Positions 21,426 through 40,533 of a DNA stretch of 61,106 nucleotides are shown here, piece by piece. The position numbers were made by a program, and so were the translations under genes. Every line of letters begins with the position of its first letter. Positions within the stretch are counted from its first letter, which is position 1. Source of the stretch: Bacteroidota bacterium (lineage in GTDB: Bacteria; Bacteroidota; Bacteroidia; Bacteroidales; Prolixibacteraceae); contig JAJUGZ010000011.1 in NCBI GenBank assembly GCA_029265715.1, forward strand, positions 1 through 61,106. The letters run 5' to 3'. The notes under the pieces are model-generated. The model was not told the origin of the DNA. It worked only from the letters and a program-made list of their open reading frames with translations, and did no database searches.

Positions 21426-21441
21426 TTTTATTAGAAAGGCA

Positions 21442-21449: not shown

Positions 21450-21691
21450 ATTAAAGAAGCCAATCAGCTGATAAATTTAATATCCGAACACGATTTTTAA
21501 ACCAAAAATAAAGTGGAGCAGATTGTTTACCGATGAAACGAACATGCCACGGTAACAAAATTTATGGTGGTGCCACCAAAGGCCATGTAAATATTATTAG
21601 AGAAGCTAATTTTCATGGCATGGGGTTCCATAAGTACACACCTAAATTTCAATGTTTTAACAACAATATTTACTTATGAATAAAAAGAGAA

Positions 21692-21718
21692 CGACCTGCC
21701 AAATAAAATGACAGGTCG
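21692..21718 (-). terminator. Terminator of gcvT
   Basis: A 7-bp stem CGACCTG/CAGGTCG with a 13-nt loop lies about 22 bp past the gcvT stop. It is followed in minus-strand reading by TTCTCTTTTTATTC. Moderate strength. Confidence 0.65.
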
Positions 21719-21739
21719 CCCCATATCTGACAAACCGGA

Positions 21740-24219: not shown

Positions 24220-25803
24220 CTAATGCCCGTTGAATACGATGTACAGGCTAACCATCACAACAATCAGGGTAATCCAGGCAATCCAGACCCGGCGTTCCGG
24301 TTTGGGCAGACGGCCAAAATCGAGCACGTTCCGATCGACCGACTTTTTGTCGAAATACGAAACCAAAAACGCAACAACGGCCAACACAACAAAAATGAAA
24401 AACGAAAGCAGCAGGAAGTGCGGCCAGAAATCGTATTTCTCTTTCGGGAAAACCCACAAATACAGGATTCCGGTCCCGATACTGAAAACCGTCCCGGCCG
24501 AAAGGATCAGGTTGGCCGCACGGGTCGTCGTTCGTTTCCATAGAACGCCAAACAGGAAAACCACCGACATAGGCGGGGCCAAGAAGCCCAGTATCGCCTG
24601 AAACACATCAAACAGTTTTAACCCTTTGATCGAGTTGATCGCCAGGGTCAGCAAAATAGCAATGGCCGCCCCAAGCACCGTCACGATGCGGCCAATCAGG
24701 ACGACTTCTTTTTGAGAAGCTTCCGGTTTATATTTCTTCACATAAATGTCGACCGTGAAAACCGTACTCAGCGAGTTCAACGCCGAGTCGATCGTACTGA
24801 CCAGCGCAGCAATCAAAACAGCCATCACCATCCCGACCAGACCGGCCGGCAGCAAGCGTGTGACCATGGTCATATACGCTTCGTCGGGATTTTTCAGGTC
24901 AGGGAAAAGCACAAAGCAGGTGATGCCCGGGATGATGAAAAGCGCCACATCCAGAATTTTTAGCCAGCCGGTAAAATTGGCGCCCATTTGTCCCTGGCGC
25001 AGGTTTTTAGCCCCCAAAACCGACTGTACCATCGACTGGTCGGTACACCAAAACCAAACACCCATAACCGGGTAGCCCAAAATAATGGCCAGCCACGGAT
25101 AATTCGGGTCGTTGGCCGGCAAAAACAAATTCCAGTAGCTGGCAGGCGTGTGTTCGTAAATGGCCATCGGGCCACCCGCCTTTACCACGCCTACAATGGT
25201 CAGGATCAGCGAAACCACAATCAGCAACAACATCTGGAACACATTGGTATAGGCAATGGCTTTTAAACCGCCGGCGATGGTAAAAAAAGCTGAAATGCCA
25301 ATCAGCACGAAAACCGACAACCACATGGGCAGGTTTAGTATCTGCCCGACCAAAATACCACCGGCAAAAAGCGTGAGCGCCAGCCACGAAATCAGAACCG
25401 TTGCAATGGTGTACCAGGCCAGAATGTTGCGGGTTGACTGCCCAAACCGCTTCCCCATAAATTCGGGTAAGGTTTGAACGCGAGCACCCAGGTACCGCGG
25501 CGCAAATACCACTGCCAGCAAAAAGATAAACAGGAAAGCGTACCAACCAAAGTTGCCGGCGACAATTCCGGTTGTATAACCAATGCTGGCCGAAGCCACC
25601 AGCATGGATGGCCCGACATTGGTCCCCCACATGGTAAAACCAATACTCGGCCAACCCAATGAATGGCCGGCCAAAAATAAATTTTCGTCACGTTTCTTTT
25701 TCTTCCCGAAGCTTACCCAATAGCCAAGGCCAATCAACACCAGCAAATAAACGAGGACTACGGCAAAATCGATTGGTCGCAAAAGCGCATAAATATTTTC
25801 CAT
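24220..25803 (-). CDS. Sodium:solute symporter (SSS family), probable sugar uptake
   Basis: Inner-membrane Na+-coupled transporter of 527 residues with about 13-14 hydrophobic segments. The start FAVVLVYLLVLIGLGYWVS, GHSLGWPSIGFTMWGTNVG, GGLKAIAYTNVFQMLLLIVVS and ALVSTIDSALNSLSTVF are SSS-family blocks similar to SGLT-like members. It is the last gene of the polysaccharide locus and would import a released mono- or oligosaccharide. It is separated from the preceding gene by a dispersed repeat. Confidence 0.9.
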   Translation of the reverse strand: MENIYALLRPIDFAVVLVYLLVLIGLGYWVSFGKKKKRDENLFLAGHSLGWPSIGFTMWGTNVGPSMLVASASIGYTTGIVAGNFGWYAFLFIFLLAVVFAPRYLGARVQTLPEFMGKRFGQSTRNILAWYTIATVLISWLALTLFAGGILVGQILNLPMWLSVFVLIGISAFFTIAGGLKAIAYTNVFQMLLLIVVSLILTIVGVVKAGGPMAIYEHTPASYWNLFLPANDPNYPWLAIILGYPVMGVWFWCTDQSMVQSVLGAKNLRQGQMGANFTGWLKILDVALFIIPGITCFVLFPDLKNPDEAYMTMVTRLLPAGLVGMVMAVLIAALVSTIDSALNSLSTVFTVDIYVKKYKPEASQKEVVLIGRIVTVLGAAIAILLTLAINSIKGLKLFDVFQAILGFLAPPMSVVFLFGVLWKRTTTRAANLILSAGTVFSIGTGILYLWVFPKEKYDFWPHFLLLSFFIFVVLAVVAFLVSYFDKKSVDRNVLDFGRLPKPERRVWIAWITLIVVMVSLYIVFNGH

Positions 25804-26049: not shown

Positions 26050-27114
26050 CTACCTGTATTTCTCCACAATTTTCAAGGCTGCATCAATATCTTTTTCTGA
26101 TTTGAAATCGACATTGATGTGCAAGCCCTGATTACCAACATGATCGATCAGCGGTTCCAGTTCGTCCAGCGTCACCCAGTTGGCCATCACCGATTTCCCA
26201 CCCGCCAAAATTCGCTTGTACAAATCGTACCAGCACGGGTCGCCTCCCTGCGGCTGCCCCACGCCGGGCGTCCACTGAATGGCGTTCAGCTCGTCGATTT
26301 CGAGCAACGCATCCAAATGGCGCTGCGCATCAACCCCGTCTAAATGGTAAAGCGTGTAATCAATCTTACGGCACTGCTCCCAAATAAACGGCTGCACAAA
26401 GCGGCGGTAATCTTCTTCGGAAATCATAGTGGAAAGGTCGCACTGCAATTTGGAGACCTTCCCCGGCGCCCAAAGCGAGAAGTAGCAGAAGGCCATCTCG
26501 TCGCCTTCGCGGATGATGTCATAAATGCGGTCGAACACCTGAAAATACACATCATTTACTTTTTGCAACTGCACTTCCAGCCCGTCCGGGTCCATGATCA
26601 TATCCATCAGTACTTCGGTGGTTCCGCGGATACTGGCCAACACATCCAGCCCTTCAACCAGATCGGGGCAACCCACATAGTAGCGGTTGGCAGAGTTGGC
26701 CTTACAGGCTTTCAACAGGTTTTCGTGCAGTTTCCAGGCCGGGTTGTTCTCGTCGAACGTGAGGTTTAGCTCCTGCCCTTCCACGTGTTTGATCCAAATG
26801 GTACCTTCGCCACCATCGAGCACAGCACCCAGCATGGCAGCCAGCGAACCGGGGCCAAGGTGCGTGTTGGCAACCGGCAAAATATCAGCCTTGAACGAAC
26901 TGCGCGAGAGTTGGTAATGCAGGTTTTGGGCCCGCCACTGGGGGTCGAACCAAAACTGATCCAGGTCGCGGGCAGGCGTTGGAGGCGCAATCAATTCGTG
27001 CGGTGCGCCATCTTTTTGCAGGTGTTCCCACATCGACAGAACGATTCCTTTGTGATCCCACCAGTCGATATAGCGTTTTTTTGTTTCGTCCAGATTTTCT
27101 TTCCAGGTCTTCAT
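26050..27114 (-). CDS. Uroporphyrinogen decarboxylase-fold protein 1 (possible methyltransferase)
   Basis: Protein of 354 residues from ATG 27114; the frame reaches a TTG at 27123 that I rejected. It is soluble, without signal peptide. The general pattern (GGEGTIWIKH, CDLSTMISEEDYRRFVQPF, YHLDGVDAQRHLDALLEI, TPGVGQPQGG) is that of the URO-D/MtaA/CmuA superfamily. Members of that fold are either heme-pathway decarboxylases or corrinoid-dependent methyltransferases. Where the methyltransferases have HxC for zinc, this one has HLD (His260, Asp262). It sits in a glycan locus rather than with hem genes, so heme synthesis is unlikely. The substrate is unknown. Confidence 0.75.
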   Translation of the reverse strand: MKTWKENLDETKKRYIDWWDHKGIVLSMWEHLQKDGAPHELIAPPTPARDLDQFWFDPQWRAQNLHYQLSRSSFKADILPVANTHLGPGSLAAMLGAVLDGGEGTIWIKHVEGQELNLTFDENNPAWKLHENLLKACKANSANRYYVGCPDLVEGLDVLASIRGTTEVLMDMIMDPDGLEVQLQKVNDVYFQVFDRIYDIIREGDEMAFCYFSLWAPGKVSKLQCDLSTMISEEDYRRFVQPFIWEQCRKIDYTLYHLDGVDAQRHLDALLEIDELNAIQWTPGVGQPQGGDPCWYDLYKRILAGGKSVMANWVTLDELEPLIDHVGNQGLHINVDFKSEKDIDAALKIVEKYR

Positions 27115-27118
27115 AAAG

Positions 27119-27153
27119 TTCAAAGTTTCAGGTTCAAAGTTTAAAGTTTCAGT
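27119..27153 (+). repeat. 7-bp repeat array upstream of the URO-D-like gene
   Basis: Five tandem heptamers TTCAAAG, TTTCAGG, TTCAAAG, TTTAAAG, TTTCAGT start 5 bp before the ATG at 27114. They belong to the same heptamer family as the arrays at 9881, 10317 and 11758. Confidence 0.75.
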
Positions 27154-27159
27154 CGCGAA

Positions 27160-27290
27160 GACTGTATCATTGAATATTGGATATTGGTTATTCAGTATTG
27201 GTTATTAATTGATTAACGATTAACGAACAACGATTTTGATTTCTGATTTCTAATTTTACTTCGTTGATCGTTAATCTATAATCGTTAATC
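27160..27290. repeat. AT-rich repeat patch between GH31 and URO-D genes
   Basis: It contains short direct repeats (ATATTGGATATTGGTTATTCAGTATTGG) followed by an imperfect inverted repeat, GATTAACGATTAACGA and TCGTTAATCTATAATCGTTAATC, whose right end overlaps the stop codon of the GH31 gene. It could fold as a transcript-end hairpin but has no GC-rich stem. Confidence 0.5.
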
Positions 27291-29561
27291 ATTCTTACGT
27301 TTCCATAGTTCTGACAGAATGCTTCGGTCGAGCCCGCCAAAGCTTTCATCAAACCTCACATCAGCAGCTTTTGCCAAATCCATTTCGTCGGTATTGCTTA
27401 CCGGATAGGGATAAACCGGTATTTCCGCTCCGTATTTCACCCAAACCGGCATTTCGTCGAGCGGACATTCAAAATTGTTCAGCCAGCGGCCACCTTCCGA
27501 AATTTCCCCGGAGAAAAAGTTTACCCACTTTCCTTCGGGCAAATACACATCGCGGCGGTTTTCGCTGTTCATCACCGGCGCAACCAGGAAGCTGTCGCCG
27601 AAGTAATACTGATCATCGATATGCCAGCAGATTTTATCTTCCGGATGATGGAAAATCAACGCTCGGAGCATCGGGTACCCGGAAGTGGTTACTTTTTTAC
27701 TTTGTTCCACAATGTACGGAATCAGTGCATAGCGCAACTTGAGCCATTTACGCACAATGCCCGATATTGCTGGATATTCGTAAGGTTCACGTTTGGAGGT
27801 TCCGTGGTAGCGCAAATGCGATGAAAACACCCCGAACTGGGTCCAGCGCACATACAAATCGTCGGGTACCACCGAGTTCATAAAGTTTGGGACACTGTGG
27901 AAGCCCGGCACGTCGTGGCTCCAATAGCCAAAGCCCGACAAACCGATGTGCAAGCCGCCTTTCAGCGAACCGGCCATTCCATCCCACGAGCAAGCCGAGT
28001 CGCCGCCCCAGTGCAACGGATACCGCTGGCACCCAGCCCACCCGGCCCGCGCCCACACAATACCATCGCCGGTTACTTCTTTGGTCACCTCGAAGGCAGC
28101 TGTCTGGTACAACAAGGCATACAGGTTGTTGAGCAATTCGGGTTTCATGGCATGGTATTCGGCATTCATGTGAATATCTTCACCAAAATCGGTCTTGATG
28201 CAAACTACGCCCATCTCCAGTAAACTACGGAGCAGGCCCTTGTACCATTCCACTGCTTGCGGATACGTAAAATCGATGGTCCCTGCATAATCGAGCGCCG
28301 AGAAATTGGAACCGCCCTGTTTTTCCACCTGTTTCAGGATACACATGTATTTGTTTTCGAGCGCCTCGTCGTGTTGCTCGGCATTGGCTGCAATATACGG
28401 CATCTGCCACAGGCTCACCTTAAAACCGTTTTCGCGCAAATCGTGGATAAACTGCTTCGGATCGGGAAACCGTTCGGGATTAAATCTCCATTCGCACAGC
28501 CAGTCGGTACGGAACCAGCCTGTATCCAGATGGATCACATCGCACGGGTAATCTTCCCGGCGCAAACGGTCGCATTTTTCCTTCACCTCATCGGCTGAAA
28601 AATAGGTCATCCGGCTCATCCAGGTACCATAACTCCACAGCGGGAGTTCGGTCGGGAAGCCGGTCAAACGGCGATATTCGTAGAGGATTTCCTCCGGATT
28701 TTCGCCTCCGAGCAAGAAAACATCCAGAAGCGGTTCTTCAACCAGCAACTGCACTGAGCGGGTTGAATGGTCGGCCAGCGAAAATTTCGAATAAGCCGAG
28801 GTGTGCATAAACACGCCATACATCCGGCTCGACAGGAAAAATGGCACATTCTTGTACGTCCGGCGGTTATTTACCCCCTGCCCGTCCTGGTTTTTTAGCT
28901 GAAACGTGTGCCCCGACAAATCCATTTTGGTAAACCGTTCGCCGGTTCCCACGAATTTTTCGTCGGGCTGAATATGAAACGACAGGGTTGCCCGGTCAGG
29001 TTGCCCGTCGCGTTCAACAAGCGCCAGTGCAAACGCATCGTGGCGGGCCGGGAAGAAATGATCGTGCGCACTCAGCTTAAGCTCTTTTTTGCCATCCGGA
29101 TAAAACGACAATTCAAGCGACTCTTCCGGCTCAGGCAACAAATCGCTCCAGTAATCCAATTTCAACGGACGGCGGTCCAACCGGGCACGCAAAAGCCCGC
29201 CGGCATCTTTCACCAGCCATTCGTCTTCCGTTTTTTCAACCTGAAGTGGAACCACCTGAAGCGTCGGGTCAAACGCCAGCATAAGCGAACCGGGCATTTC
29301 AGGAACCCCAAACCCGACCGATACCCGCAAAATCTTCGGCCCGTAAGCGCGTAACCGTAAACGATAGTTTTTCCGGGGCACATCCCGGTCGGGTGTAATA
29401 TCGTTGGACACCTTCTGTTTCTGGAACGGCAATTCAAATACAACATCAGGACCATCGACCCGCACATCAACCGGAGCGCAGGTTTTCCACAATACATCGT
29501 TACCCGGCAATGCGGTGTCGAAATCCAAAAAATCAAAAAGCTGAAAATTGGTTTGTTTCAT
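27285..29561 (-). CDS. GH31 alpha-xylosidase-like glycosidase
   Basis: Protein of 758 residues without a signal peptide, so probably cytoplasmic. The catalytic nucleophile Asp458 lies in IKTDFGEDIH, the YicI-type alpha-xylosidase signature, and the acid/base Asp521 lies in HWGGDSACSWDGM, followed by GLSGFGYWSHDVPGF. Family members release alpha-xylosyl or related residues from oligosaccharides, and some relatives act on sulfoquinovosides. It is the next-to-last enzyme in the locus and starts 8 bp after the GH78 stop. A cytoplasmic location implies that short oligosaccharides are imported before final cleavage. Confidence 0.88.
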   Translation of the reverse strand: MKQTNFQLFDFLDFDTALPGNDVLWKTCAPVDVRVDGPDVVFELPFQKQKVSNDITPDRDVPRKNYRLRLRAYGPKILRVSVGFGVPEMPGSLMLAFDPTLQVVPLQVEKTEDEWLVKDAGGLLRARLDRRPLKLDYWSDLLPEPEESLELSFYPDGKKELKLSAHDHFFPARHDAFALALVERDGQPDRATLSFHIQPDEKFVGTGERFTKMDLSGHTFQLKNQDGQGVNNRRTYKNVPFFLSSRMYGVFMHTSAYSKFSLADHSTRSVQLLVEEPLLDVFLLGGENPEEILYEYRRLTGFPTELPLWSYGTWMSRMTYFSADEVKEKCDRLRREDYPCDVIHLDTGWFRTDWLCEWRFNPERFPDPKQFIHDLRENGFKVSLWQMPYIAANAEQHDEALENKYMCILKQVEKQGGSNFSALDYAGTIDFTYPQAVEWYKGLLRSLLEMGVVCIKTDFGEDIHMNAEYHAMKPELLNNLYALLYQTAAFEVTKEVTGDGIVWARAGWAGCQRYPLHWGGDSACSWDGMAGSLKGGLHIGLSGFGYWSHDVPGFHSVPNFMNSVVPDDLYVRWTQFGVFSSHLRYHGTSKREPYEYPAISGIVRKWLKLRYALIPYIVEQSKKVTTSGYPMLRALIFHHPEDKICWHIDDQYYFGDSFLVAPVMNSENRRDVYLPEGKWVNFFSGEISEGGRWLNNFECPLDEMPVWVKYGAEIPVYPYPVSNTDEMDLAKAADVRFDESFGGLDRSILSELWKRKND

Positions 29562-29569
29562 TGTAAAAA

Positions 29570-31756
29570 CTATTCTACATTTTTATATTTCACCACAACC
29601 TCCTGCCCCTTCAGGATGGTCATTTCGTATTGTTTATCTCCGGTTTGTTTGACTTCTGCACCTTTACAAACTGGTTTCGAAGCGCTTTTAAACCGAAGGG
29701 TCCCGGTCCCTTCGTCCGACTTCACACGAATTTCTTTTTGATTACATGCCACATGAACCTTTCCGTTTGGCGTTGGCACATCGCCTTCCATCCATTGCAA
29801 ATCGCCCAGACAAGGCTCTACCGAATAGGTCTGGTAACCCGGAGAAGTTGGCTTCACGCCCAAGTAATATTTACCCAGCAAATAAATCGGACTGGCGCCC
29901 CAGGCATGGCACAGGCTCTTTCCGAACGGCCGTCCATACATGCCCAGCAGTTCCGGATTTTTTTCCTGCGGATTGTATTTTTCCCAGAAAGTGGTTGCCC
30001 CCAGGTTGATCATTCCACCCCAGTAATCGCGGATTTCTTTCAGCACATATTTTTGCTCACCCAACGCACACAGGGCTTCCAATTCGTAAAAGCGCATGTA
30101 GGGCGTTGTAATTTTCAAGGCATTCGGGTTCAGCAAAACATTGTCTTTTACGGCTTTCGTTTTGTCCTGATCGAGGTAGCCAAACAGCACGGCAAACATG
30201 TTGGTAAATGGTGTTACCTGCGTACTCAGTTTGCCATTTTCGCGGTTATGCACAAAAGCATTGTACTGTGGCGACCAGAACACGTTGAATATTTTCGACT
30301 TCAAATCGGAAGCCAGTTTGCTGTATTTAGCCGAGTTTTCCGGATCATTCATCAGGTTGGCGCACAAAGCCATCGTTTCGAGGCTCCGGCAGAAAAGCAA
30401 CTGCTCGAAGCTTACTTCGCCAGCCTTGCTCATCTTAAAGTCGGCCCAGTCGATAAATACCCAGTCACCGGCCAATCCCTGCATCATTCCTTCTGAATTC
30501 CGGCGCGAAAGACAATAGTCCATCAGACTTTTCATGCGCGGATACAATTGCTCAATCAACTGTTTGTTCCCGGTGTACTGATAATAGTCGTACACTCCCA
30601 TGAACCAGTAGAACGTATAGTCCATGATGGTGTTGATGTGGCTCGTCACCGGATCTTTTCCCCGCAAAACAAACGTTGTTCGGCTCACCGACGGCGAATC
30701 GAAAAACAGGTAATAGTTCATCAGGTAGCTTTGGTAAGCATCGCCGCTCCACACCCAGCGGTCGCGCTTGATGCCATCGATAAAGAACTCTCGGGTCGTC
30801 AGGTGAAGCGTATAAGCGCCAACATCCCAGATTTTATTGAGCTGTTCGTCGTTACAACGGAAACTGCCTTTGTAATCAAGCGGCAAATATTCGTACAACA
30901 TCGATACAGAGCTATACGAAAGATTGGCTTCATCTTCCACATACACATACCGGAAAGCCTTCGAACCCGACACCGTAACATCGCGGGCCGTAGCCTGATC
31001 AACCGGGATACGGTCGAGCGTTTCGCACTGATCGGTCGACAAAGCCTCTTCAGGCGATTCGCCGTAGTAAATATTCAGCGTACCTTTCCCTTTCAGTCCG
31101 TTAAATTTCACGTAACCAAATGTTTCTTTACCGAAATCGTAGAGCGTACCGTTATTTTTCTTTTCACTGGAAACAGCAGCCTTCGGCTCGGTTGCCAGTT
31201 TAAACTGTGAAGGCAATTCGTCCGGCGCATTAAAATTCCACGAAGCCGCATTCAGATAAACCGTTCCTGAAGAAGTATCCGATGCTTTCCCCGATTCGTC
31301 GATCCATTCTTTGTCTTCAAACGTGACCAGCCACGAATTGTCGGATTTAATGGTCGGCCCGTCCACGAAAATAGCCGGCACAGTAGACTGGTTGTGAACT
31401 TTGATATTCAGCAAATGCTTCCCGGCCGGGATCGTCACGTTCTCCGGATAACCGAACAACAACTTGCCGTCGAGTTTCACATTGTATTGACCTTCCACTT
31501 TCAACCGGATGGTTTCTTCCGTTTTCAGGTCAAGCTTTTTGGAGAATTCAACCAGCACATAATGACTGTCCATTTTCCAGAAAGGCGGAAAGAACGTTCC
31601 CCGCTCGGTGCGCCGGTTTTGCATTTTATTTCCAAGCCATATCTCATAATCGCCCGGATACCATATCCAGGTTGCTTTTTGCGCCATTGCAAATTCAGCC
31701 CCGGCCATGACCAGTAGCAAGGTTGCGACGACAATTCGTTTTATTGGTTTCTTCAT
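29570..31756 (-). CDS. Alpha-L-rhamnosidase (GH78)
   Basis: Protein of 728 residues with a signal peptide (VATLLLVMAGAEFAMAQ), so periplasmic or surface-exposed. The (alpha/alpha)6 catalytic domain carries the family block FFIDGIKRDRWVWSGDAYQSYL with the acidic residues expected for an inverting GH78, and a C-terminal beta domain follows AWGASPIYLLGKYYLGV. It removes terminal alpha-L-rhamnose from rhamnogalacturonan, arabinogalactan or glycosides. It lies between a GH2 and the GH31 with 17-bp and 8-bp gaps. Confidence 0.88.
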   Translation of the reverse strand: MKKPIKRIVVATLLLVMAGAEFAMAQKATWIWYPGDYEIWLGNKMQNRRTERGTFFPPFWKMDSHYVLVEFSKKLDLKTEETIRLKVEGQYNVKLDGKLLFGYPENVTIPAGKHLLNIKVHNQSTVPAIFVDGPTIKSDNSWLVTFEDKEWIDESGKASDTSSGTVYLNAASWNFNAPDELPSQFKLATEPKAAVSSEKKNNGTLYDFGKETFGYVKFNGLKGKGTLNIYYGESPEEALSTDQCETLDRIPVDQATARDVTVSGSKAFRYVYVEDEANLSYSSVSMLYEYLPLDYKGSFRCNDEQLNKIWDVGAYTLHLTTREFFIDGIKRDRWVWSGDAYQSYLMNYYLFFDSPSVSRTTFVLRGKDPVTSHINTIMDYTFYWFMGVYDYYQYTGNKQLIEQLYPRMKSLMDYCLSRRNSEGMMQGLAGDWVFIDWADFKMSKAGEVSFEQLLFCRSLETMALCANLMNDPENSAKYSKLASDLKSKIFNVFWSPQYNAFVHNRENGKLSTQVTPFTNMFAVLFGYLDQDKTKAVKDNVLLNPNALKITTPYMRFYELEALCALGEQKYVLKEIRDYWGGMINLGATTFWEKYNPQEKNPELLGMYGRPFGKSLCHAWGASPIYLLGKYYLGVKPTSPGYQTYSVEPCLGDLQWMEGDVPTPNGKVHVACNQKEIRVKSDEGTGTLRFKSASKPVCKGAEVKQTGDKQYEMTILKGQEVVVKYKNVE

Positions 31757-31773
31757 CAGTTATAGCGTTTGGT

Positions 31774-34700
31774 TTATTGAATTTTCAATGAATTAAAATA
31801 CGCCGGTCCGGGTTCCAGCAGGGTTAGTTTCAGCTTGTAGATACCGGCATTAATGGTTGTTTGCGTGTCGGTCCGGAAGCTTTTCCACTTTTCTCCAGGC
31901 TGGTCCAAACATACCGGCCCACGCCACATTTCGCGCCCGTCAATCGAAGTAATGCTCATTTCAGCTTTCAATGCCCGTCCATCGGTATTCAAATAGCGAA
32001 ACTCAAGCCCGTATTTCGATGCCAGTCCAACGGAGAATTGCCATTCAACAGCGTCGCCATTGCCGGGAACCAGCACACAATCTTTTCCGGAGAAATTCGT
32101 CATTTGCGAAGCGCCGTATGTTGTCGCCCCGTCGGTTGACAGGGTAACCGTTGGGCGCAAATCAATCACATCGTTAATCTGGGTAACAGGCACTATCGCC
32201 ACAATAGCCGAGGCCGCTGATCCGCTGAGGGCAAATTCAACGGTCTCCCCCTTCCCGAACCGTTTCTGATAAATGGAATACGCTTTCTCCCCGGTTTCAT
32301 CCGTCGAAATGGCCTTGCTGCTTTTGCTGAATGTGGCCGGTTGCTGCAACGGGTCGGCTAAACCAACAAACACATCTGCGTCAGTATTCAGCGTAAAACT
32401 TACCGGAATTTTTCCGGAAGAAAGCGTTATCTGATGCGGCAGCCGGATCCATTCCGCGCCATGCAATTCTGCCGGAAGCTTCAGTAATTCAATGTCTGAA
32501 TCGGTGAAGCAACGGTCACCGGTATTCATCCATGTTTCGGGCGAAGCGTTCACCTCCGAACGAAAATGCTGTACCACCCGCGGAGAAGCCACCGCCGGTT
32601 TTCTATTTTTCTTATCCGACGAAATGGCTATGGCTGAAATAACCGCCTGCCCGGCCTTTATCTTCGGAAATGAGATTTTCAGGGTCCCGCCTTTCACATT
32701 CACCTGCAAGGTTTTCTTTAAAAGCCTGTCGTGACCAGCTTCCTTCCAGATGTCTAAATCAGCAATCACCACCCGATCGTTCACCGCCACATCGAACAAA
32801 CGCCAGCCGGTGCAATCCATTCCGCCGCCGGTACCATACCAGGGCTCAATAAAAAACAGCTCAACCTGATAATTGCCATCGGGAACCGGAAATTCATACC
32901 ATAGTTTGTGCATCCCGTAGCGAAAAGTCTGGAATAAAGGCCAATCTCTGGTTCCCACAATTGGATCGCTGGTTTGGCGCTGGCTGCCATAAAATGCCGG
33001 AAGCCCCGGATAATCGTCGGTCCACGAATGCGAGCCCCAGGTGTTTTCGCCGGTTTTATGCACATCGGCCATCCACTCATTCCCTTCGGAATCGGTATAA
33101 TCCGGTCCGCCACAGTTAACCCGGTACAAATAATTACGATTCTTATTTTCGGTCAGCGGAACAATATTTCCACCCAGCTCGCCCAACCGATTAGCTTTTG
33201 GCAAATGATTCAGAAGAATATAGTCGTGTGCAACCTCTTTCCCGGCAACATATCCGACAGCATACAGCACATTATTCTGAATATCAGCCTGGTCCCAGAC
33301 AAAATGCTGCCCTTTCCCCGGATTGGTTTTTCGTCCGAACGAATGTTCCCGCACCCCATTAAAAAGCTCCACTTCATCGCAGTTCGAGAACACACGGATG
33401 CCATCTTTTTCCCCGGTTGTTGTCCACCGATCGGGCCATGTGTGTGAAACGATGTAAACCATCGGCTCTGTTTCTTTCGGTGCATAATTCGCCCTGAACA
33501 TATAATACACATCCAGTGGTTCGCCCCAGATGGTGATGGCCCCCTTGTAATTGACAGGCCCCAGACGATCGAGTTCGCGCATGCCTTCGCCGCCCTGCGT
33601 CCGACCAGGGTTATCGTGCGAAGCCAACAGCCAATGAAACTGTCCGCAACAATGTTCTCTTGCCGCTTCGGCCAGGCGCACTTTCGACTCCATCAGCAAC
33701 GAGAAACGGTCTTCGGTGTACGGCCCGTTCTGGACAAAACCTCCTTCGGAGTGGGCATCAATACTTCGCCATGCTCCATACTCACCATTCAGCAGTTGCT
33801 TCGAAATTTCCTGATCATACAAATCCGGGTTGCCGCCATAGGTCCCCGACCAGTTTTGCACCACGTTCCAATCGGTTCCGGTACCGCCATTGCAGGTTGT
33901 AACCAGACGCTGTTTCGAGGCCGTCGGGTCCAGTTTGCGAATTAGGTCGGTACATTCCTTTGCAAAATCAGTTGGCAGGGTGCTCTCGTTTTCGAGACCC
34001 CACAAAACAACCGACGGGCTGTTTCGCCGTTCTCTGATCCAATCGGTCAGAAGTTGCTTAAAATTCTTCCTGAATTCGGGGGTGTCGAACCAGATATGGG
34101 CCCCCATCTGCGGCCACCAAAGCAAGCCCAATCGGTCGATTTCTTCTTTGTATCGTAAATTATGTGGCTGATGCGCATCGCGAAAAGCATTGTATCCGGC
34201 AGCACGCACCTGTGCAACCCGGGCCCTGACCTGCTCGTCAGAAAAAGCATGCCCCTGCCCCATTAAATGTTCGTACTCGGCCGTTCCGTTAATAAAAACC
34301 GGGGTCCCGTTCAGATAAAAACGGTTGGTTGCCTTTTCGCCTGTAATGTCCCATTTAATCCAGCGAATCCCGTATGAAGTATTTTCAGTATCAACCAGTT
34401 TCCCATCCCGGTAAATTTCCGTATGAACAACATACAGATACGGATCATCCAGCGACCACAGGTGCGGGTTTTCAATATTCTCAAATACCTGATACACGGT
34501 ATCGCACCGGCCTGCAGGCAAATCGAACCCGGCCTCGATTTTACGGACTACTTTTCCTGAAGCGTCTTTCAGAACATTCACCAGATGGATTTTGGCTGCT
34601 GAACCACTGTAGTTTTTTACTTCGGTTGTAAGGTTAAGCGTGACCTGCTTGTCCGAAATGTTATCGTCGTTCCAGATATGCACGCCAAACGGTTCGACCC

Positions 34701-35295
34701 TTACCTCATCGGTTACAACCAAATGCACCGGCCGGAAAATTCCCATCGGCTGGCTCCCTTCGGAGAAACCCCATTCGGGGCTGCAACCTCCGCACACCCA
34801 GGGCAAATCGCGGATATTCGTCGGATGGTCGGCCCGCACGGCCAGCACATTTTCTTTCCCCGGACGAATGGCATTTGTGACATCCAGCGTAAACGAAGTC
34901 CGCCCGCCGGCATGATAACCAACCGAATCGCCATTCAGCCAAACCGTTGCATACGAGCCAACCCCTTCGAAAAAAAGAAAATAGCGTTTGCCGTTTTGTT
35001 GCTTTTCAACTTTAAACGTTTTTCGGTAAGCAGCATACCCGTGGCGATTACCATGAACCAAGCGGCGGTACCCGCCATAATCGTCCCAGTTATGCGGAAC
35101 ATCAACCAACTGCCAGGACCGGTCGTTGTACGAAAGCGACTCAAAGCCCTGAAAAACAGTTTTTGTTGAATCATTGGCAATCGTTCGCCAACCGTCATTC
35201 AGTAAATACGATCGCCGTACATTCTGTCCAACAGCAATTTGTCCGGCCAGAAGAAGAAAAAATACTATCGCTATTCTGCCTAAAATCATATTCAA
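31774..35295 (-). CDS. GH2 glycosidase with malectin-like domain (beta-galactosidase type)
   Basis: Large secreted enzyme of 1173 residues. A signal peptide (IAIVFFLLLAGQIAVG) is followed by a jelly-roll domain (VDVPHNWDDYGGYRR), an Ig-like domain and the TIM barrel. The barrel has the acid/base Glu in VVLWGLENEST and the probable nucleophile in LNGEYGAWRSI. A malectin-like carbohydrate-binding stretch (YRVNCGGPDYTDSEGNEW ... YQVELFFIEPW) comes next, then a C-terminal beta domain. GH2 covers beta-galactosidase, beta-glucuronidase and others, and the exact activity cannot be read from sequence. It lies directly next to a URO-D-like gene with no gap. Confidence 0.85.
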   Translation of the reverse strand: MNMILGRIAIVFFLLLAGQIAVGQNVRRSYLLNDGWRTIANDSTKTVFQGFESLSYNDRSWQLVDVPHNWDDYGGYRRLVHGNRHGYAAYRKTFKVEKQQNGKRYFLFFEGVGSYATVWLNGDSVGYHAGGRTSFTLDVTNAIRPGKENVLAVRADHPTNIRDLPWVCGGCSPEWGFSEGSQPMGIFRPVHLVVTDEVRVEPFGVHIWNDDNISDKQVTLNLTTEVKNYSGSAAKIHLVNVLKDASGKVVRKIEAGFDLPAGRCDTVYQVFENIENPHLWSLDDPYLYVVHTEIYRDGKLVDTENTSYGIRWIKWDITGEKATNRFYLNGTPVFINGTAEYEHLMGQGHAFSDEQVRARVAQVRAAGYNAFRDAHQPHNLRYKEEIDRLGLLWWPQMGAHIWFDTPEFRKNFKQLLTDWIRERRNSPSVVLWGLENESTLPTDFAKECTDLIRKLDPTASKQRLVTTCNGGTGTDWNVVQNWSGTYGGNPDLYDQEISKQLLNGEYGAWRSIDAHSEGGFVQNGPYTEDRFSLLMESKVRLAEAAREHCCGQFHWLLASHDNPGRTQGGEGMRELDRLGPVNYKGAITIWGEPLDVYYMFRANYAPKETEPMVYIVSHTWPDRWTTTGEKDGIRVFSNCDEVELFNGVREHSFGRKTNPGKGQHFVWDQADIQNNVLYAVGYVAGKEVAHDYILLNHLPKANRLGELGGNIVPLTENKNRNYLYRVNCGGPDYTDSEGNEWMADVHKTGENTWGSHSWTDDYPGLPAFYGSQRQTSDPIVGTRDWPLFQTFRYGMHKLWYEFPVPDGNYQVELFFIEPWYGTGGGMDCTGWRLFDVAVNDRVVIADLDIWKEAGHDRLLKKTLQVNVKGGTLKISFPKIKAGQAVISAIAISSDKKNRKPAVASPRVVQHFRSEVNASPETWMNTGDRCFTDSDIELLKLPAELHGAEWIRLPHQITLSSGKIPVSFTLNTDADVFVGLADPLQQPATFSKSSKAISTDETGEKAYSIYQKRFGKGETVEFALSGSAASAIVAIVPVTQINDVIDLRPTVTLSTDGATTYGASQMTNFSGKDCVLVPGNGDAVEWQFSVGLASKYGLEFRYLNTDGRALKAEMSITSIDGREMWRGPVCLDQPGEKWKSFRTDTQTTINAGIYKLKLTLLEPGPAYFNSLKIQ

Positions 35296-36450
35296 TCAAT
35301 CTGAATTTTCCGGTAATCGGGAACCGTTACACATTTCATGAACCAGTTCATACGCTTCGGCCTGTTCTTCCGGAGTTGAACAATAGGTTACAACTACCAT
35401 TTTCATTCCGGGAAGCCATAAACGTGAGACCTGTTCGCGAATCGTTTCCAGATCACCTACGATACGGGCATTCAGCACAATGCCGGTATTGGCAAATTTG
35501 TGAAACGCTTCCAGGTTGTTGGTTGCCCCCGGGTCGGTTTGCGGCGAAAATGCCCCGTCGGCCATTTTAAGTCCTTTTATCTGAAGCACCGCATCGACCC
35601 AGGCCGACCAGTCGCCACACGAATGGAAAACCGGGCCTCCCAGCGGAGCGCATATTTTTTCTACAGAAGGGGCAGCCATCTCCAGATATTGATCCGGAGA
35701 AATCATAATCGCATTGTCGTCGCTCATGCCCAGACCCGACCATTTGGTCGATGACGCAAATCCATGACCAGGCAACGCCAACGCATCGCCAATCAATTTA
35801 ATCTGTTCGTTATTGAAATTTATCGACAAATCAGCCAGACGGTCAAACAATTGCAACACCTTCTCAGGCTCCAGCAACATATCCATGAAAAACTGGTCGA
35901 GCGGATACAAATGCCCGATCATGTTCAGCGGCGACTGGGTATCAGTCAGCGACACAGGCACCCGGCCTTTTGTCTGGTCCATGAAATATTCAATCATATC
36001 CAGCGTATGCCGGCCAATGTTGGTTTGTGCTATTTCCCGGGCCGGATAAGCCAGCACTTCGTCAATCGTTTTAAACGGAGCTTTCAGCGCCGGGGCATTT
36101 CCTTCTGTCCACAGATAATCGCCGCCCCATGCGCTGGCAACCGTTCCGATACCATACCAGGGTTCCAGGAAATTGGGCACATCGGCTTTGAAAAACATAC
36201 TTTTCTCCAAAGCGCCCAACTGTAGCTCAAGTGAACGTTTCATATCACTGCAACCATACGAGAAACACTCGCCCACCCGCATCCGGCGATAAACCACTAC
36301 GCCGGATTTCTGTTCCCAAAACCGGGCACAGGTTTTATTTAATTCTGCCGTATAAGCTTCATACTTGTCAAAATCGAAATTCCCAGGTTTTACCGGAAGA
36401 ACCTGGGTTGCCTGTGCATCGGCTATCTGATTGTCAAATTTGGAAACCAT
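35296..36450 (-). CDS. Uroporphyrinogen decarboxylase-fold protein 2 with HxC zinc-type motif
   Basis: Protein of 384 residues from ATG 36450 (MVSKFDNQ), preceded by a purine-rich GGGGAGG. The TTG at 36477 that extends the frame runs into a repeat hairpin and was rejected. The fold is that of URO-D-like methyltransferases. It has VFHSCGDW (His276, Cys278) and C-terminal Cys357 and Cys374, suitable for an HxC...C zinc site as in MtaA/CmuA corrinoid methyltransferases. No corrinoid-binding protein (DxHxxG) is encoded nearby. It lies between GH2 and another URO-D-like gene. Possible role: methyl transfer from a methylated sugar or aglycone (inference). Confidence 0.78.
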   Translation of the reverse strand: MVSKFDNQIADAQATQVLPVKPGNFDFDKYEAYTAELNKTCARFWEQKSGVVVYRRMRVGECFSYGCSDMKRSLELQLGALEKSMFFKADVPNFLEPWYGIGTVASAWGGDYLWTEGNAPALKAPFKTIDEVLAYPAREIAQTNIGRHTLDMIEYFMDQTKGRVPVSLTDTQSPLNMIGHLYPLDQFFMDMLLEPEKVLQLFDRLADLSINFNNEQIKLIGDALALPGHGFASSTKWSGLGMSDDNAIMISPDQYLEMAAPSVEKICAPLGGPVFHSCGDWSAWVDAVLQIKGLKMADGAFSPQTDPGATNNLEAFHKFANTGIVLNARIVGDLETIREQVSRLWLPGMKMVVVTYCSTPEEQAEAYELVHEMCNGSRLPENSD

Positions 36451-36502
36451 GCAACCTCCCCTTAAAGCCTCCCCCAACCCCTCCGATGGAGGGGAGTTTT
36501 TG
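36451..36502. repeat. Polypyrimidine repeat with hairpin CCCCTCC/GGAGGGG
   Basis: Reads ACCTCCCCTTAAAGCCTCC then CCCCTCCGATGGAGGGGAGTTTTT. The 7-bp hairpin at 36478-36494 followed by T5 resembles a plus-strand terminator, but no plus-strand gene ends here. It looks like a dispersed intergenic element, and its reverse strand supplies the purine-rich leader of the gene at 36450. Confidence 0.5.
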
Positions 36503-36582
36503 GTCTTCTGTTATTTGAATATTCTGATCTTTTTGCATGTAGAATTAATTTAATGCTCAAAACACTTCAAGCATTTACTGTC

Positions 36583-37731
36583 CTAACTAGGCTTTGATCT
36601 CCTCCTCAATTCCTCTACCGTTTCAAAAATGGTACTGATGCGGTCGTCCGAAACCGAATCGTCCATGTTGATGCAGCAAACACCTGTCAAATATGGATTT
36701 CCGGAGTCGTGGACTAAACGGATAATTGTTTCGCGTATTTCGTCGTTCGACTGCCGGGCAATTTCGACCGGACTGAGACGAATATTCAGAAACGTTTCGG
36801 GCAAATATTCGCGAAGCGTTTTCAGGTCGCCACCCCAACCCACATCCAGAAAATCGAGATGCGGAATTTTGGCAAAACTGGCCGCCATGCGGTGCGGATC
36901 GGGCCCGCAGTAATGAATGCCAAACGGTCGTTTTTGGCTCCACTGCTGATCAAACGGTAACAGGTAATTCTCATAATCGTCTTCCGAAATCATGGTGTGC
37001 GAACACTCGGAATGCAACAGGACGGGCTTCTCCAGATGACGAACGCCCCGATTTACCGAGATCGATGTCGTTCCGGTTTCAGACTGAAGAAATGAGGTAA
37101 ATTTTTCGATTACACTGGCGATCCCGGCAAAGTATTCTTTTACTTCGTCCGGGGTCATCATCATGTCGAGGAAAATATTCTCGCCCCTCAGGTCCATGGC
37201 AATGTTCAGGATCCCTCCCCAGTTAATATCGCCCGTCAGAAAGCCATATTTCTTTTTCAGCGAATCGGTTAATTCTATAACCCGCCGAAACGCATCGGAA
37301 CGAAAAGCCTCGTCTGCCGAAATATTCCGTAACTCCTGATGGGCCGGCAACACCTGGGGCGGATGCGCTTCGGTGTATTTTACCTCACAGCCCAACATCT
37401 CCGAAAGCAGGTAACCAGCAGCCAGGTGTACGGCACCAATCTCTGGCCGGGGTTGATCTTTATGTTGCCCCAACCCGAATTTTCCCCAGCGTTCGTACAA
37501 CACGTTTTCCATTTGCTGCTCCACTTCAACCCGTTTCAAGGGATGAAAAAAGAAGTCGGGATCGAACGTTATTCTTTCATTTTTGTGCCACCATTCCGGG
37601 GCTAAAACAATGTCGACCGGAAGAATGGAATTTCCTAAAAGAGTGTTTTGCTTATAGGTCATATTTTGTATTAAAATTGTTCGTTCTATTCCGTCCGAAA
37701 GAAGAACATTGCCTTTTTTTATCCTTATCAT
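36583..37731 (-). CDS. Uroporphyrinogen decarboxylase-fold protein 3 with HxC zinc-type motif
   Basis: Protein of 382 residues, soluble. It contains GIHYCGPDPHR (His273, Cys275) and a C-terminal GVCCINMDD (Cys352/353), again matching an HxC...C zinc site. Other family-like blocks are FDPDFFFHPLKRVE, DLRGENIFLDMMMTPDEVKEYF and HSECSHTMISEDDYENYLLPF. It is diverged from its two paralogues in the locus, so the three are probably not recent copies. It could pair with protein 2, one acting on the methyl donor and one on the acceptor, as MtaB/MtaA-type systems divide the work (speculation). Confidence 0.75.
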   Translation of the reverse strand: MIRIKKGNVLLSDGIERTILIQNMTYKQNTLLGNSILPVDIVLAPEWWHKNERITFDPDFFFHPLKRVEVEQQMENVLYERWGKFGLGQHKDQPRPEIGAVHLAAGYLLSEMLGCEVKYTEAHPPQVLPAHQELRNISADEAFRSDAFRRVIELTDSLKKKYGFLTGDINWGGILNIAMDLRGENIFLDMMMTPDEVKEYFAGIASVIEKFTSFLQSETGTTSISVNRGVRHLEKPVLLHSECSHTMISEDDYENYLLPFDQQWSQKRPFGIHYCGPDPHRMAASFAKIPHLDFLDVGWGGDLKTLREYLPETFLNIRLSPVEIARQSNDEIRETIIRLVHDSGNPYLTGVCCINMDDSVSDDRISTIFETVEELRRRSKPS

Positions 37732-37809: not shown

Positions 37810-40533
37810 CTAATAAAATAGCCAGTCGACAGATGGCTTTCCAGCCGTGCCAATATTGGCATCGTGTGTCGGTATTTCCTGGGCTCCATCTATGAAACCA
37901 AGCACCAGCACGCGTCCTTTACCCAGAACAAGTTCATTCTCACCAGCAGCATACGAGTAGGAATATACATTTACAGGATACAAACCGGGAAGCGATAACG
38001 CATTGGCTATGCGAATATCAGCCTGACCTCGGTCGTTGGCCTGCGCATTGGTTTCCAGGGTTGGCGGATTCAGGATCGAATAGCTGTTGGTATTGAAATA
38101 GCCTACCAACACTTTCACCGGCTTTTCACTTTTGAATTTCAGCACAGTTCCTTTTTCTTGCTGTTCTTTATCTGAGAATACCACTCCCGAAAGCTTTTGC
38201 AACTCAGGAGAAAAATCGTCGATAACAGATTTATTGTCGTTATAAACAGCAGTTCCTTTTTTGTATGTAAATCGTTTGGCCTCCTTATTCAGAATGGTTA
38301 CCTGAACTGGTTCAAATGCCAGAACCTGAGCCTGAGCCTTTCCATTATTGGCTTTCAGCATTTCAACATTCCTCCTGAAATTATTGAATTCAGCCTGATA
38401 TTGGGGCAGCAATTCAGCCCATGTTTTATTTTTACCGTCAGAACCGGATGCAGGGATACGACGTTGAGCGGTTTGCATACTGTTTGCATACAGGTATGTA
38501 TTCTCGGTTAATTTCACCAATTCAGTATAATATTCAAGGCTTTTCTCGATAAACGGAAGCGCTTTTTCAAGGTCTTTCACGTCGTTGGAATACTGATAGC
38601 GATAGATCAACATGGCGGCTTTCACTTTTTCGGCAAAGCAATTCGCAAATGCACGGTAGCAGTACACGTCGTTTTTCAGACGGGCAAATTCCTCTTTATT
38701 GGCTGTCACTGCCTTTTCGGCTTTATCAATGGCCTCAACGGCCAACTGGCCACGTTTCACCACATCGTCAATAATCTGAGGCGGCGTTTCTCCCTTGTGC
38801 TCCTCGCCTTTCCATTCTTTTTCAGCATAAACTTCCAGCACTTCTTTTAGCGGTCCGCTCGATGGCCAGAAATTGGAATACACGCCATATTTATGCGGGT
38901 TAACCAATTGCGACATGAACATACCCAACAGCAAGGTCTGACGGTTACCGTCGGATATACCAAACGTGCGCAACAGTTTCGGAGCAATTTCGCCGGTTTG
39001 TTCGTAAGCCTCAACAATGTTTCGCCCTTCTTTTCCACAACCATATGTTTCGCCCAGTTTATCGCCCCAATATTTGACTTCTTCAGAACGGTCGCGGTTG
39101 GCTTTCCAGGCATAACGGGCCCAGGCATCGTACCAAATCCGGTCGCGGTCCATCTCCAGCAACCGGGGGGCTGTTTTATCAGCGCTGTATGGCCAATCCC
39201 AGTACGAAGCCTGCGGATAAACATGCACCCCTTTGGCCCCCTGGATTCTCTGCATAGCCAACACACTTTTCTGGATGAAATCAGGCGATCCGTAGCGGAA
39301 CGGTTCCAGATTGGCCAAAATATGCACATTGGCAATGTGCAACGTGCCAATCTGCGACAAACCTTTCGGAATACTGTCCCACGAATCGCGGGGTTCATAA
39401 GTCGTCAGCGACTCGCCATTGTATTTCGACATGGTGAATAAATTCTTGTAGATTGGCAAAGCAGCTTCCATCACCCGTTTGGCATCGGTATCGTGTGCCC
39501 GAAGTACAATCGGCACCTCATCGGTGCGGCCAAGCGCTTTCAAACCGTCTTTTACGCCCGGGATAATGGTTTGAGTAAACCATTCCACATCGTCGTCGAT
39601 GGTATTCATGGCTTCGCCCAGTGTAATCAGCAACCCAACATGAGGATATTTTTCGATAAAAGCAGCAATCGATTTTTGTGTATAATCAGCAATGATCGGA
39701 ATAATCGGACGCTCACAGTCCTGTGTCTTCAACTTATTGTGTTCGGCAAAAGGCTTTGAAACAATGATATTGTAGAACATCTGAATGACCCAGATACCGC
39801 GCTTCTCGGCTTCTTCGGTCAGGAATGCAAATATTTCTTCGTTCTTTTTGAAAGTCTCATCGTCCACCTCCACGGCATACGGATAGTCTTTCAGTTTTAC
39901 AAGTGATGCAAACGGGTGACCATTCCACAGATAAAGCGAGTTATAACGGTTTTCAACCATCATATCCAGGTATTTCGTCCAGAGGGCTTTATCGTAAAAC
40001 CACGGAAAGTTTTCCGGCGTGTACGGATATTCGTAAACGGTTCGTCCGGGCAGATAAACCGTCTTCTGCAAGCCGATGCAGGTTCCGCGCATCACCATTT
40101 GTGGCTGATCAACCACATGAATATCCTTCGGAAGTTTGCCATCGGCCTTTAACCGGTCAGCCAATTCCATGCAACCATATAAAACACCACTCGGATCAGC
40201 GCCACCGACATACATTGTTTTTCCGGACGATTCAATCACAAACCCTTCTTTTTTCAACGTATCCAGCGACTGGTTGCTTTTTGCCACATCGGCCAGCAAC
40301 TCACTTTGCAGGCTGCCAACGACAATCTGTTTTGTGCCGTCGGTCAATAGCTGATCAGAAAGAACAACTTCATATCCCTGTTCTTTCAATGCGCCAGCCA
40401 GCTTTTCAACGGCAAATTTTTCTCGGGGCGAATCCTGCTTCGTTACCAACGTAACTTTTCCCTTTTGTACGCACGAAACAATCGACAAGGCGAAGATTAA
40501 AACTACAGTGCTTCTTATTTTTATGTAATTCAT
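37810..40533 (-). CDS. Putative glycosidase with GH67/GH20-type N-terminal domain (possible alpha-galacturonidase)
   Basis: Lipoprotein-like enzyme of 907 residues (signal VVLIFALSIVSC, Cys21). Residues about 25-145 look like the zincin-like alpha-glucuronidase N-domain (PREKFAVEKLAGALKEQGYE, GVLYGCMELADRL). The next 400 residues look like a TIM barrel (NRYNSLYLWNGHPF, LLITLGEAMNTID, ANVHILANLEPFRYGSPDF). The C-terminal part has a helical stretch and a beta domain. I remember similar Bacteroidota proteins being called alpha-D-galacturonidase, but I cannot verify this. The glycan context (rhamnose, galactose) makes a uronidase reasonable. Confidence 0.55.
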   Translation of the reverse strand: MNYIKIRSTVVLIFALSIVSCVQKGKVTLVTKQDSPREKFAVEKLAGALKEQGYEVVLSDQLLTDGTKQIVVGSLQSELLADVAKSNQSLDTLKKEGFVIESSGKTMYVGGADPSGVLYGCMELADRLKADGKLPKDIHVVDQPQMVMRGTCIGLQKTVYLPGRTVYEYPYTPENFPWFYDKALWTKYLDMMVENRYNSLYLWNGHPFASLVKLKDYPYAVEVDDETFKKNEEIFAFLTEEAEKRGIWVIQMFYNIIVSKPFAEHNKLKTQDCERPIIPIIADYTQKSIAAFIEKYPHVGLLITLGEAMNTIDDDVEWFTQTIIPGVKDGLKALGRTDEVPIVLRAHDTDAKRVMEAALPIYKNLFTMSKYNGESLTTYEPRDSWDSIPKGLSQIGTLHIANVHILANLEPFRYGSPDFIQKSVLAMQRIQGAKGVHVYPQASYWDWPYSADKTAPRLLEMDRDRIWYDAWARYAWKANRDRSEEVKYWGDKLGETYGCGKEGRNIVEAYEQTGEIAPKLLRTFGISDGNRQTLLLGMFMSQLVNPHKYGVYSNFWPSSGPLKEVLEVYAEKEWKGEEHKGETPPQIIDDVVKRGQLAVEAIDKAEKAVTANKEEFARLKNDVYCYRAFANCFAEKVKAAMLIYRYQYSNDVKDLEKALPFIEKSLEYYTELVKLTENTYLYANSMQTAQRRIPASGSDGKNKTWAELLPQYQAEFNNFRRNVEMLKANNGKAQAQVLAFEPVQVTILNKEAKRFTYKKGTAVYNDNKSVIDDFSPELQKLSGVVFSDKEQQEKGTVLKFKSEKPVKVLVGYFNTNSYSILNPPTLETNAQANDRGQADIRIANALSLPGLYPVNVYSYSYAAGENELVLGKGRVLVLGFIDGAQEIPTHDANIGTAGKPSVDWLFY

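Follow-up and report, generated by a model that had tools for sequence, protein, structure and literature searches.

A putative corrinoid-dependent O-demethylation system tied to a rhamnogalacturonan-II-like locus of Bacteroidales

Introduction

Known corrinoid O-demethylases combine a donor methyltransferase (methyltransferase I, MTI), with or without zinc, with a corrinoid protein, a second methyltransferase and an activation protein (PMC13222342). Several donor enzymes, namely MtvB, OdmB, VdmB, MtoB and CdmB, belong to the uroporphyrinogen decarboxylase (UroD) superfamily, and their known substrates are methoxy-aromatics or haloalkanes. In this study, we describe three UroD-fold genes, U26, U35 and U36 (labelled by position), in a 61,106-nt stretch of DNA from a Bacteroidota bacterium of the Prolixibacteraceae (GCA_029265715.1, contig JAJUGZ010000011.1), hereafter the window. 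Our analysis suggests that U26, probably together with U36 and U35, is likely to be the donor-side MTI of a corrinoid-dependent O-demethylation system tied to a locus for pectin rhamnogalacturonan-II (RG-II).

Related systems are organized differently. The chloromethane methyltransferase CmuA unites MTI and corrinoid functions in one protein (PMC13222342), as a U26-corrinoid fusion of Phocaeicola vulgatus would, whereas U26 of the window stands alone and in a glycan context. Methionine synthase, MetH, joins homocysteine-methyltransferase and B12 domains, as do some fused U26 forms, and has an activation domain to which the activation protein described here is related (PF02965); however, these forms add U26, have the activation domain as a separate protein, and gave no match to the pterin-binding (methyl-tetrahydrofolate) domain in the two examined with Pfam (L119, L120). 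Type 1 mlp gene clusters likewise pair UroD-family methyltransferases with a corrinoid protein; these clusters, which encode Mlp2, Mlp3 and an activase of the RACE type, have been assigned a proposed role with methyl-sulfur or methyl-selenide (Kountz and Balskus, PMC10418091). The present genome differs, in that 18 kb of its corrinoid contig C90 hold one UroD-family (MtaA-like) protein and PF14574 was not found in the genome.

For RG-II itself, the Bacteroides thetaiotaomicron account leaves 2-O-methyl-xylose-fucose (2-O-Me-Xyl-Fuc) uncleaved, and the parts of it used here describe no sugar-ether demethylation (PMC7939467). The window locus encodes relatives of the B. thetaiotaomicron RG-II glycosidases. 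To our knowledge, the anaerobic handling of O-methylated sugars is unsolved. No published corrinoid route in glycan loci was found in the open-access literature, a scope that leaves out the main RG-II paper (Ndeh 2017), so that absence from print is not established; as far as the literature searched shows, the glycan context and the U26 fusion of a corrinoid methyltransferase system are unreported.

Results

Three homologous UroD-fold proteins

All three genes are on the minus strand. The open frame of U26 (26050..27123) has 357 aa and those of U35 (35296..36477) and U36 (36583..37731) have 393 and 382 aa; homologue alignments suggest internal ATG starts at ~27114, ~36450 and ~37662, respectively (counted by hand). 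U35 passes the Pfam URO-D family PF01208 (48.8 bits vs a cut-off of 23.9), and neither U26 nor U36 matched any Pfam or NCBIfam family at 1e-3. Alignment of profiles with hhalign linked U36 to U26 (probability 96.8, E 2.4e-10) and U26 to U35 (probability 95.2, E 2.6e-8); judged by these alignments, the three are homologous to one another. The AlphaFold2 model of U26 (pLDDT 92.6, pTM 0.91) has the UroD fold, its 10 best Protein Data Bank (PDB) matches all being uroporphyrinogen decarboxylases (E 1.6e-7 to 6.8e-6, TM 0.51-0.63, 8-12% identity). Membership of the fold is thus assigned through PF01208 for U35, through the model for U26 and through hhalign to U26 only for U36. When the profiles of the three families were searched against PDB sequences, nothing useful emerged.

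The zinc ligand motif, His-x-Cys with a distal Cys, is present in the sequences of U35 and U36 and absent from U26. U35 has H285-S-C287 and C366, the distal Cys being kept in 4/5 homologues, and U36 has H273-Y-C275 and C352-C353, kept in 8/8. The corresponding motif of U26, H260-L-D262, occurs in 38/38 homologues and also in the distant L129 (fetched loci, genomes and contigs are numbered with L, G and C). The lack of an HxC motif would be no obstacle to an MTI role for U26, because UroD-fold MTI enzymes without zinc, the dehalogenase CdmB and a Moorella O-demethylase, have been published (PMC13222342). The MtaA/CmuA family models were not reached by U35 (18.7 bits on TIGR01463, cut-off 235.4; 35.2 on NF004889, cut-off 244) and not matched by U26 or U36. 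A HemE function was ruled out for all three, since none matched hemE at 1e-3 and the genome has a HemE-like gene elsewhere.

The original prediction, made from the sequence alone, had placed three UroD-fold genes among GH2, GH78 and GH31 enzymes (GH, glycoside hydrolase), far from any heme gene, two with HxC plus a C-terminal Cys and one with HxD. Frames, profile scans and PDB matches bear out this setting, the alignments agree with the motifs (HxD being the HLD of U26), and structure prediction, a check it had proposed, returned the UroD fold for U26. With 320.5 bits, the top-scoring URO-D protein of the genome is HemE-like and lies on another contig, C31.

Fusion and co-occurrence of U26 with corrinoid proteins

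U26 loci were taken as the best 80 of 341 relatives across genomes. Many of the fetched stretches end at contig ends, and two loci in which no U26 frame was called (L181, L188) were kept in the denominators and left out of the tree. U26 is fused to a corrinoid domain in 11/80 loci (Phocaeicola, Bacteroides), giving proteins of ~600 aa, as in P. vulgatus ATCC 8482 (L162:10001-11803) and Bacteroides faecis (L174). Fusions of U26 to a homocysteine methyltransferase occur in 30/80 loci (Prevotella, Prevotellaceae), 29 of which also have a corrinoid domain; the other, L184, ends at a contig end. A further 20 loci have a separate gene for a corrinoid protein, so that a corrinoid domain or gene is found in 60/80. 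Pfam confirmed S-methyl_trans, B12-binding_2 and B12-binding in L119 and L120, and both B12 domains in L162. The model of the P. vulgatus fusion had a mean pLDDT of 60, and the domain arrangement was not read from it.

Nineteen loci, including L181 and L188, have no corrinoid gene in the stretch, which together with L184 makes 20 in which no corrinoid domain appears. For every one of these loci the genome encodes a corrinoid relative, in 19 cases at E <= 1.3e-42; the match in the L181 genome is weaker (7.1e-26) and lies in a frame of 893 aa at the edge of a contig. The corrinoid matches of G252 and G253 each contain one flagged stop codon. As a background, 38/247 genomes of the order hold a corrinoid protein at E < 1e-40, a line chosen after the list had been seen; two of the 38 (G111, G211) are U26 fusions themselves, G211 passing narrowly (8.7e-41). 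Among these 247 genomes, a corrinoid protein accompanies U26 in 8/8 (E < 1e-70), U36 in 7/8 and U35 in 5/6 (both E < 1e-130). Weaker matches were left out of these counts (at E <= 0.001, U26, U36 and U35 match 12, 15 and 11 genomes), the P values ignore relatedness, and some sequences are shared between the two samples (by identical coordinates, L149 belongs to the G064 genome and L161 to the G019 genome). In 395 genomes of the class, U36 matched only the window's genome at 1e-30.

The neighbours of U26 are also recurrent. GH31 is present in 57/80 and a sodium:solute symporter (SSF) in 58/80 loci, and GH31, SSF and U26 occur together in 55/80; GH141 is found in 34/80. An activation gene of the methionine-synthase type is found in 45/80, which, like the position of U26 outside Pfam and NCBIfam models, sets this group apart from the known UroD-superfamily MTI enzymes; it resembles them in the UroD fold and in the partner corrinoid protein and second methyltransferase (PMC13222342), and differs in that U26 loci are glycan loci.

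In a midpoint-rooted tree of 79 rows (78 loci and the window), U26 of the window groups with Gaoshiqia (Prolixibacteraceae), and a group of 43 rows (100/100), made up of the fused forms and two basal unfused Phocaeicola rows, is separated from all others. A U26 relative with 67% identity, on a metagenome-assembled genome (MAG) contig of Sedimentisphaerales (Planctomycetota; L173:10001-11059), falls inside a Bacteroidales group of the tree, by transfer or mis-binning.

Side observations were made beside some U26 relatives. Genes for an Fe-alcohol dehydrogenase, a PdxA-like protein and a sugar-binding-domain (SBD_N) protein lie at L158:3779-7080 and a beta-keto acid cleavage enzyme at L187:8443-9321; these neighbours possibly belong to sugar-acid catabolism.

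A corrinoid module elsewhere in the genome

The original prediction had seen its weak point in the lack of a corrinoid protein. For the window this stands, since PF02310 has no match there, but not for the genome, where the search it suggested led to a corrinoid module on contig C90. This contig encodes an MtaC-like protein with PF02607 and PF02310, a CobW GTPase, an MtaA-like URO-D protein that ends in a thioredoxin-like region, and an activation protein carrying part of a methionine synthase activation domain. A candidate for the reactivating factor was found in this form and not as RACo, PF14574 having no match in the genome. With the loci of relatives and the U26 fusions, the module strongly supports the predicted methyl-transfer route tied to a polysaccharide locus.

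Other corrinoid and URO-D genes were noted in passing. RACo does occur in the relative G132, where one run (L088:4286-13390) holds an AraC-like gene, galactokinase, a UroD protein, corrinoid, MtaA-like, CobW, activation-domain and RACo genes, a possible further sugar demethylation cluster. At L077:4590-9313, the genes after that for a corrinoid protein encode a methyltransferase with a pterin-binding domain, a protein resembling MTHFR (below cut-off) and formate-tetrahydrofolate ligase; here the methyl group may take a folate route. Two further URO-D genes of the window's genome, one on C155 and one on C160, have neighbours that appear to be glycan-related; those on C155 are GH78-type and rhamnosidase-type by NCBIfam matches below cut-off and GH95-like and GH43-like by eye. 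One URO-D type of this genome (HSC; L018:6837-7880) lies between rhamnosidase-like and GH95-looking genes, and its relatives occur in 11/80 U26 loci, several adjoining SSF; another (HND; L019:1204-2241) has an AraC-like regulator and a Gfo/Idh-like oxidoreductase as neighbours (by eye).

Corrinoid genes beside U26, U36 and U35 in relatives

Genes of the relatives' loci were labelled by blastp comparison with a limited number of proteins from the window and its relatives, and only some of the labels were checked by Pfam or NCBIfam. In Sunxiuqinia indica (L136), GH2, GH138, GH141, GH31, U26, SSF, corrinoid, MtaA-like, CobW and activation-domain genes follow in this order on one strand, with other genes interspersed, one AraC-type gene on the opposite strand and the activation domain incomplete where the fetched stretch ends. 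The corrinoid (MtaC), MtaA-like and CobW proteins are 74%, 78% and 49% identical to those of C90. Dysgonomonas sp. 511 (L161, the same locus as G019/L121) has rhaM, GH31, U26, SSF, corrinoid, MtaA-like, activation-domain, GH141, GH78 and GH138 genes, and its MtaA-like protein carries HNC and a distal Cys. A Paludibacter MAG (L152) holds, within 18 kb, U36, U35, an MFS-like gene, GH138, GH31, U26, SSF, corrinoid, MtaA-like and activation genes. In G108, U36 lies directly upstream of the corrinoid gene, 22 bases from its open frame and ~61 from the start suggested by homology; the corresponding distance in G064 is 8 kb. Corrinoid partners are thus found for U26 by fusion, adjacency and co-occurrence, for U36 by the G108 and L152 arrangements and co-occurrence, and for U35 by L152 and co-occurrence, with one exceptional genome, G208, for the latter two.

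An MFS transporter adjoins U35 relatives or lies one gene off in L124, L127 and L135 (by Pfam) and in L128, L139 and L152 (by resemblance); none was seen near U35 in L125 and L126. The best subfamily match of the L135 transporter is a galactonate-transporter model, below its cut-off. A uronate-like methylated compound is a possible substrate of U35.

The window locus resembles an RG-II side chain A locus

A SusC/SusD locus spans the window from the SSF symporter (24220) to SusC (51713) and includes U26, U35 and U36; all its genes listed here are on the minus strand. The SSF gene (24220..25803; Pfam/NCBIfam scan) and the GH31 gene (27285..29561; profile and PDB matches) flank U26, as frequent partners of it. 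The GH31 protein is alpha-xylosidase-like, resembling PRK10658 with 468.8 bits, under the cut-off of 606. It is followed by a GH78-type alpha-L-rhamnosidase close to PDB 3cih (29570..31756) and a GH2 enzyme (31774..35295) that reaches 1480.8 bits on NF049877 (beta-glucuronidase/arabinofuranosidase), under the cut-off of 1800, with most of the bifunctional model covered (positions 365-1400). Beyond U35 and U36 lie a GH138-type alpha-galacturonidase (37810..40533; NF049878, 1505.6 bits, cut-off 1300; PDB BPa0997 structures), a protein with a rhaM mutarotase domain (40560..41276; Pfam scan), a GH141-like enzyme (41288..43339; PDB 5mqp, BT_1002, E 1.3e-57) and, by profile match, a second GH2 enzyme (43559..46369), a SusD-like binding protein (46759..48333) and a SusC-like TonB-dependent transporter (48354..51713).

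By sequence matches, the window thus has a SusC/SusD pair with RG-II glycosidase families. Because the glycosidase set (GH138, NF049877-type GH2, GH78, GH141-like and GH31) fits, the locus looks like one for side chain A of RG-II. By inspection without a predictor, GH78, both GH2 enzymes, GH138, GH141 and SusC/SusD have signal-like N-termini, and no signal peptide is evident in GH31 and U26. No riboswitch matched at the Rfam gathering thresholds in the window or in 7 chosen loci among those fetched. Beside the locus, at 20676-22828, lie genes for the aminomethyltransferase GcvT and a protein with a 2-phosphosulpholactate phosphatase domain.

Discussion

Gene content, synteny, fusions, co-occurrence and the fold of U26 strongly imply methyl transfer; from them we infer the reaction, its substrates, the acceptor in the window strain and the cellular locations. 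U26 is very likely part of a corrinoid methyl-transfer system. It is read as the donor methyltransferase because it is fused to a corrinoid domain, and as the donor side because MtaA-like proteins (HNC and distal Cys) or homocysteine methyltransferases adjoin as the acceptor side. There is a good likelihood that the methyl donor is a glycan-derived methyl sugar, and 2-O-methyl-xylose in particular is a leading candidate at somewhat less than even odds.

In the pathway we propose, periplasmic GH138, GH2, GH78 and GH141 enzymes would trim side chain A of RG-II, and the SSF symporter would bring in a small methylated saccharide, to be cleaved by cytoplasmic GH31. The best candidate is 2-O-Me-Xyl-alpha-1,3-Fuc, which is unique to side chain A (PMC7939467); its import, cleavage and demethylation are suggested because the co-occurrence of GH31, SSF and U26 and that of GH141 fit them. 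U26 would then methylate Co(I) of the corrinoid protein with the O-methyl group of the sugar so released; in the window strain this corrinoid protein may be the MtaC-like one of C90, acting in trans. A second methyltransferase would pass the methyl group to a thiol, that of homocysteine in the forms with a fused or neighbouring homocysteine methyltransferase, with an MtaA-like protein in this role elsewhere, and a methionine-synthase-type activation domain, not RACo, would rescue oxidized cobalt. This would leave an ordinary, metabolizable sugar, and the fused proteins would turn the methyl group into that of methionine.

Several observations weigh against this proposal. In the window's genome the corrinoid module is unlinked to the locus, and among the five U26 sequences closest to that of the window in the tree, a corrinoid gene lies in the fetched stretch of L136 alone (L134, L135, L137 and L138 have none). 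In G176, the distal Cys is missing from U35. Methyl groups are harder to remove from dialkyl than from aryl ethers. Moreover, B. thetaiotaomicron cultures accumulate 2-O-Me-Xyl-Fuc, which the organism is said not to cleave (PMC7939467), and this species seems to hold an orthologous cluster: BT_0338 (GH141), BT0339 (alpha-xylosidase) and BT_0340, BT_0342 and BT_0343, the last three of which are called methylamine Mta proteins in PMC8941943. The order in L165 matches (GH141, GH31, U26-corrinoid fusion, SSF, activation domain, MtaA-like), and its GH31 protein is 99.3% identical over 412 aa to PDB 5f7c. We take 5f7c to be BT_0339. Two explanations can be offered: silence or repression of the cluster in those cultures, or a different substrate.

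The specificity of GH31 bears on the strongest alternative, in which the donor site of U26 is for another methyl sugar (2-O-methyl-fucose, methylated rhamnose or a methyl hexose) and GH31 is an alpha-glucosidase or acts on another linkage. The PDB names 5f7c an alpha-glucosidase, and the GH31 protein of the window has Thr-Gly where YicI has Cys-Phe, positions that we take to matter for GH31 specificity. Its alpha-xylosidase specificity is therefore not certain, and it may have alpha-glucosidase activity. The untouched 2-O-Me-Xyl-Fuc in B. thetaiotaomicron cultures would also suit this alternative, as would the 26/30 three-domain Prevotella-group loci without GH31 within two genes of U26, although in some of these it lies a few genes further. 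However, GH31 and GH141 jointly fit Xyl-Fuc-Rha, and GH138 and the NF049877-type GH2 point to side chain A; we consider another sugar the less probable choice, though one to be taken seriously.

For U35 and U36 the question is different, in that they might be UroD-fold proteins of unrelated function merely located in the locus. G208, the sole exception in both co-occurrence counts, keeps U36 and U35 frames that look intact (by its coordinates, the single stop flagged for U35 marks the end of the frame) with no MtaC or B12-binding_2 match, which also counts against our proposal, and strong U36 matches are confined to 8/247 genomes. Homology to U26, the HxC and Cys motifs, the U36-corrinoid adjacency in G108, the co-occurrence of both genes with corrinoid proteins and the L152 locus, where U26, U35 and U36 accompany the corrinoid set, make an unrelated function unlikely.

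A more general alternative is that methanol from pectin methyl esters is harvested, the UroD-fold proteins being methanol- or other C1-specific methyltransferases. The loci are pectic, and MtaB (PF12176) occurs with a corrinoid gene in two related loci, directly upstream of GH31-U26 in L144 (L144:6250-7626, 532.6 bits) and without U26 in L086 (L086:9162-10547, 526.5 bits), for which reason this explanation keeps some weight. However, U26 would be redundant in L144, where both are in one gene run, and in L086 MtaB manages without it (the 12 genomes in which U26 has a match do not include G118). Moreover, methanol requires neither the symporter nor the GH31 enzyme that U26 accompanies, and no pectin methylesterase matched among the 18 window proteins scanned with Pfam. 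We regard methanol as an improbable substrate of U26. The MtaB genes suggest that several methyl donors share one corrinoid protein. Demethylation of methylamine, trimethylamine or glycine betaine is very improbable: the corrinoid domains do score on MtbC and MtgC models, and the B. thetaiotaomicron Mta annotation quoted in PMC8941943 points that way, but these scores lie below the curated cut-offs (NF041607, 192.8 for C90 and 220 for L162 vs 370; NF047996, 155.1 and 199.5 vs 350), U26 has no Pfam or NCBIfam family and so matches no MttB-type trimethylamine methyltransferase model at 1e-3, and the neighbours are glycosidases and transporters.

Our preferred reading remains a donor-side MTI for a methyl sugar from RG-II. 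In its wider form, that Bacteroidales including human gut species own B12-dependent sugar-ether O-demethylases, which pass the methyl groups of plant methyl sugars, 2-O-methyl-xylose first, through a corrinoid protein to homocysteine by a MetH-like fusion, we see the chances as evenly balanced. If true, gut genera would have an anaerobic route of sugar demethylation, with a candidate gene set for the RG-II linkage reported uncleaved (PMC7939467), and the methylamine Mta annotation of the B. thetaiotaomicron proteins (PMC8941943) would be corrected. A concrete assay is possible with defined proteins of cultured strains. Polysaccharide use would then be linked to B12 and methionine, such that dietary polysaccharide would feed methionine synthesis.

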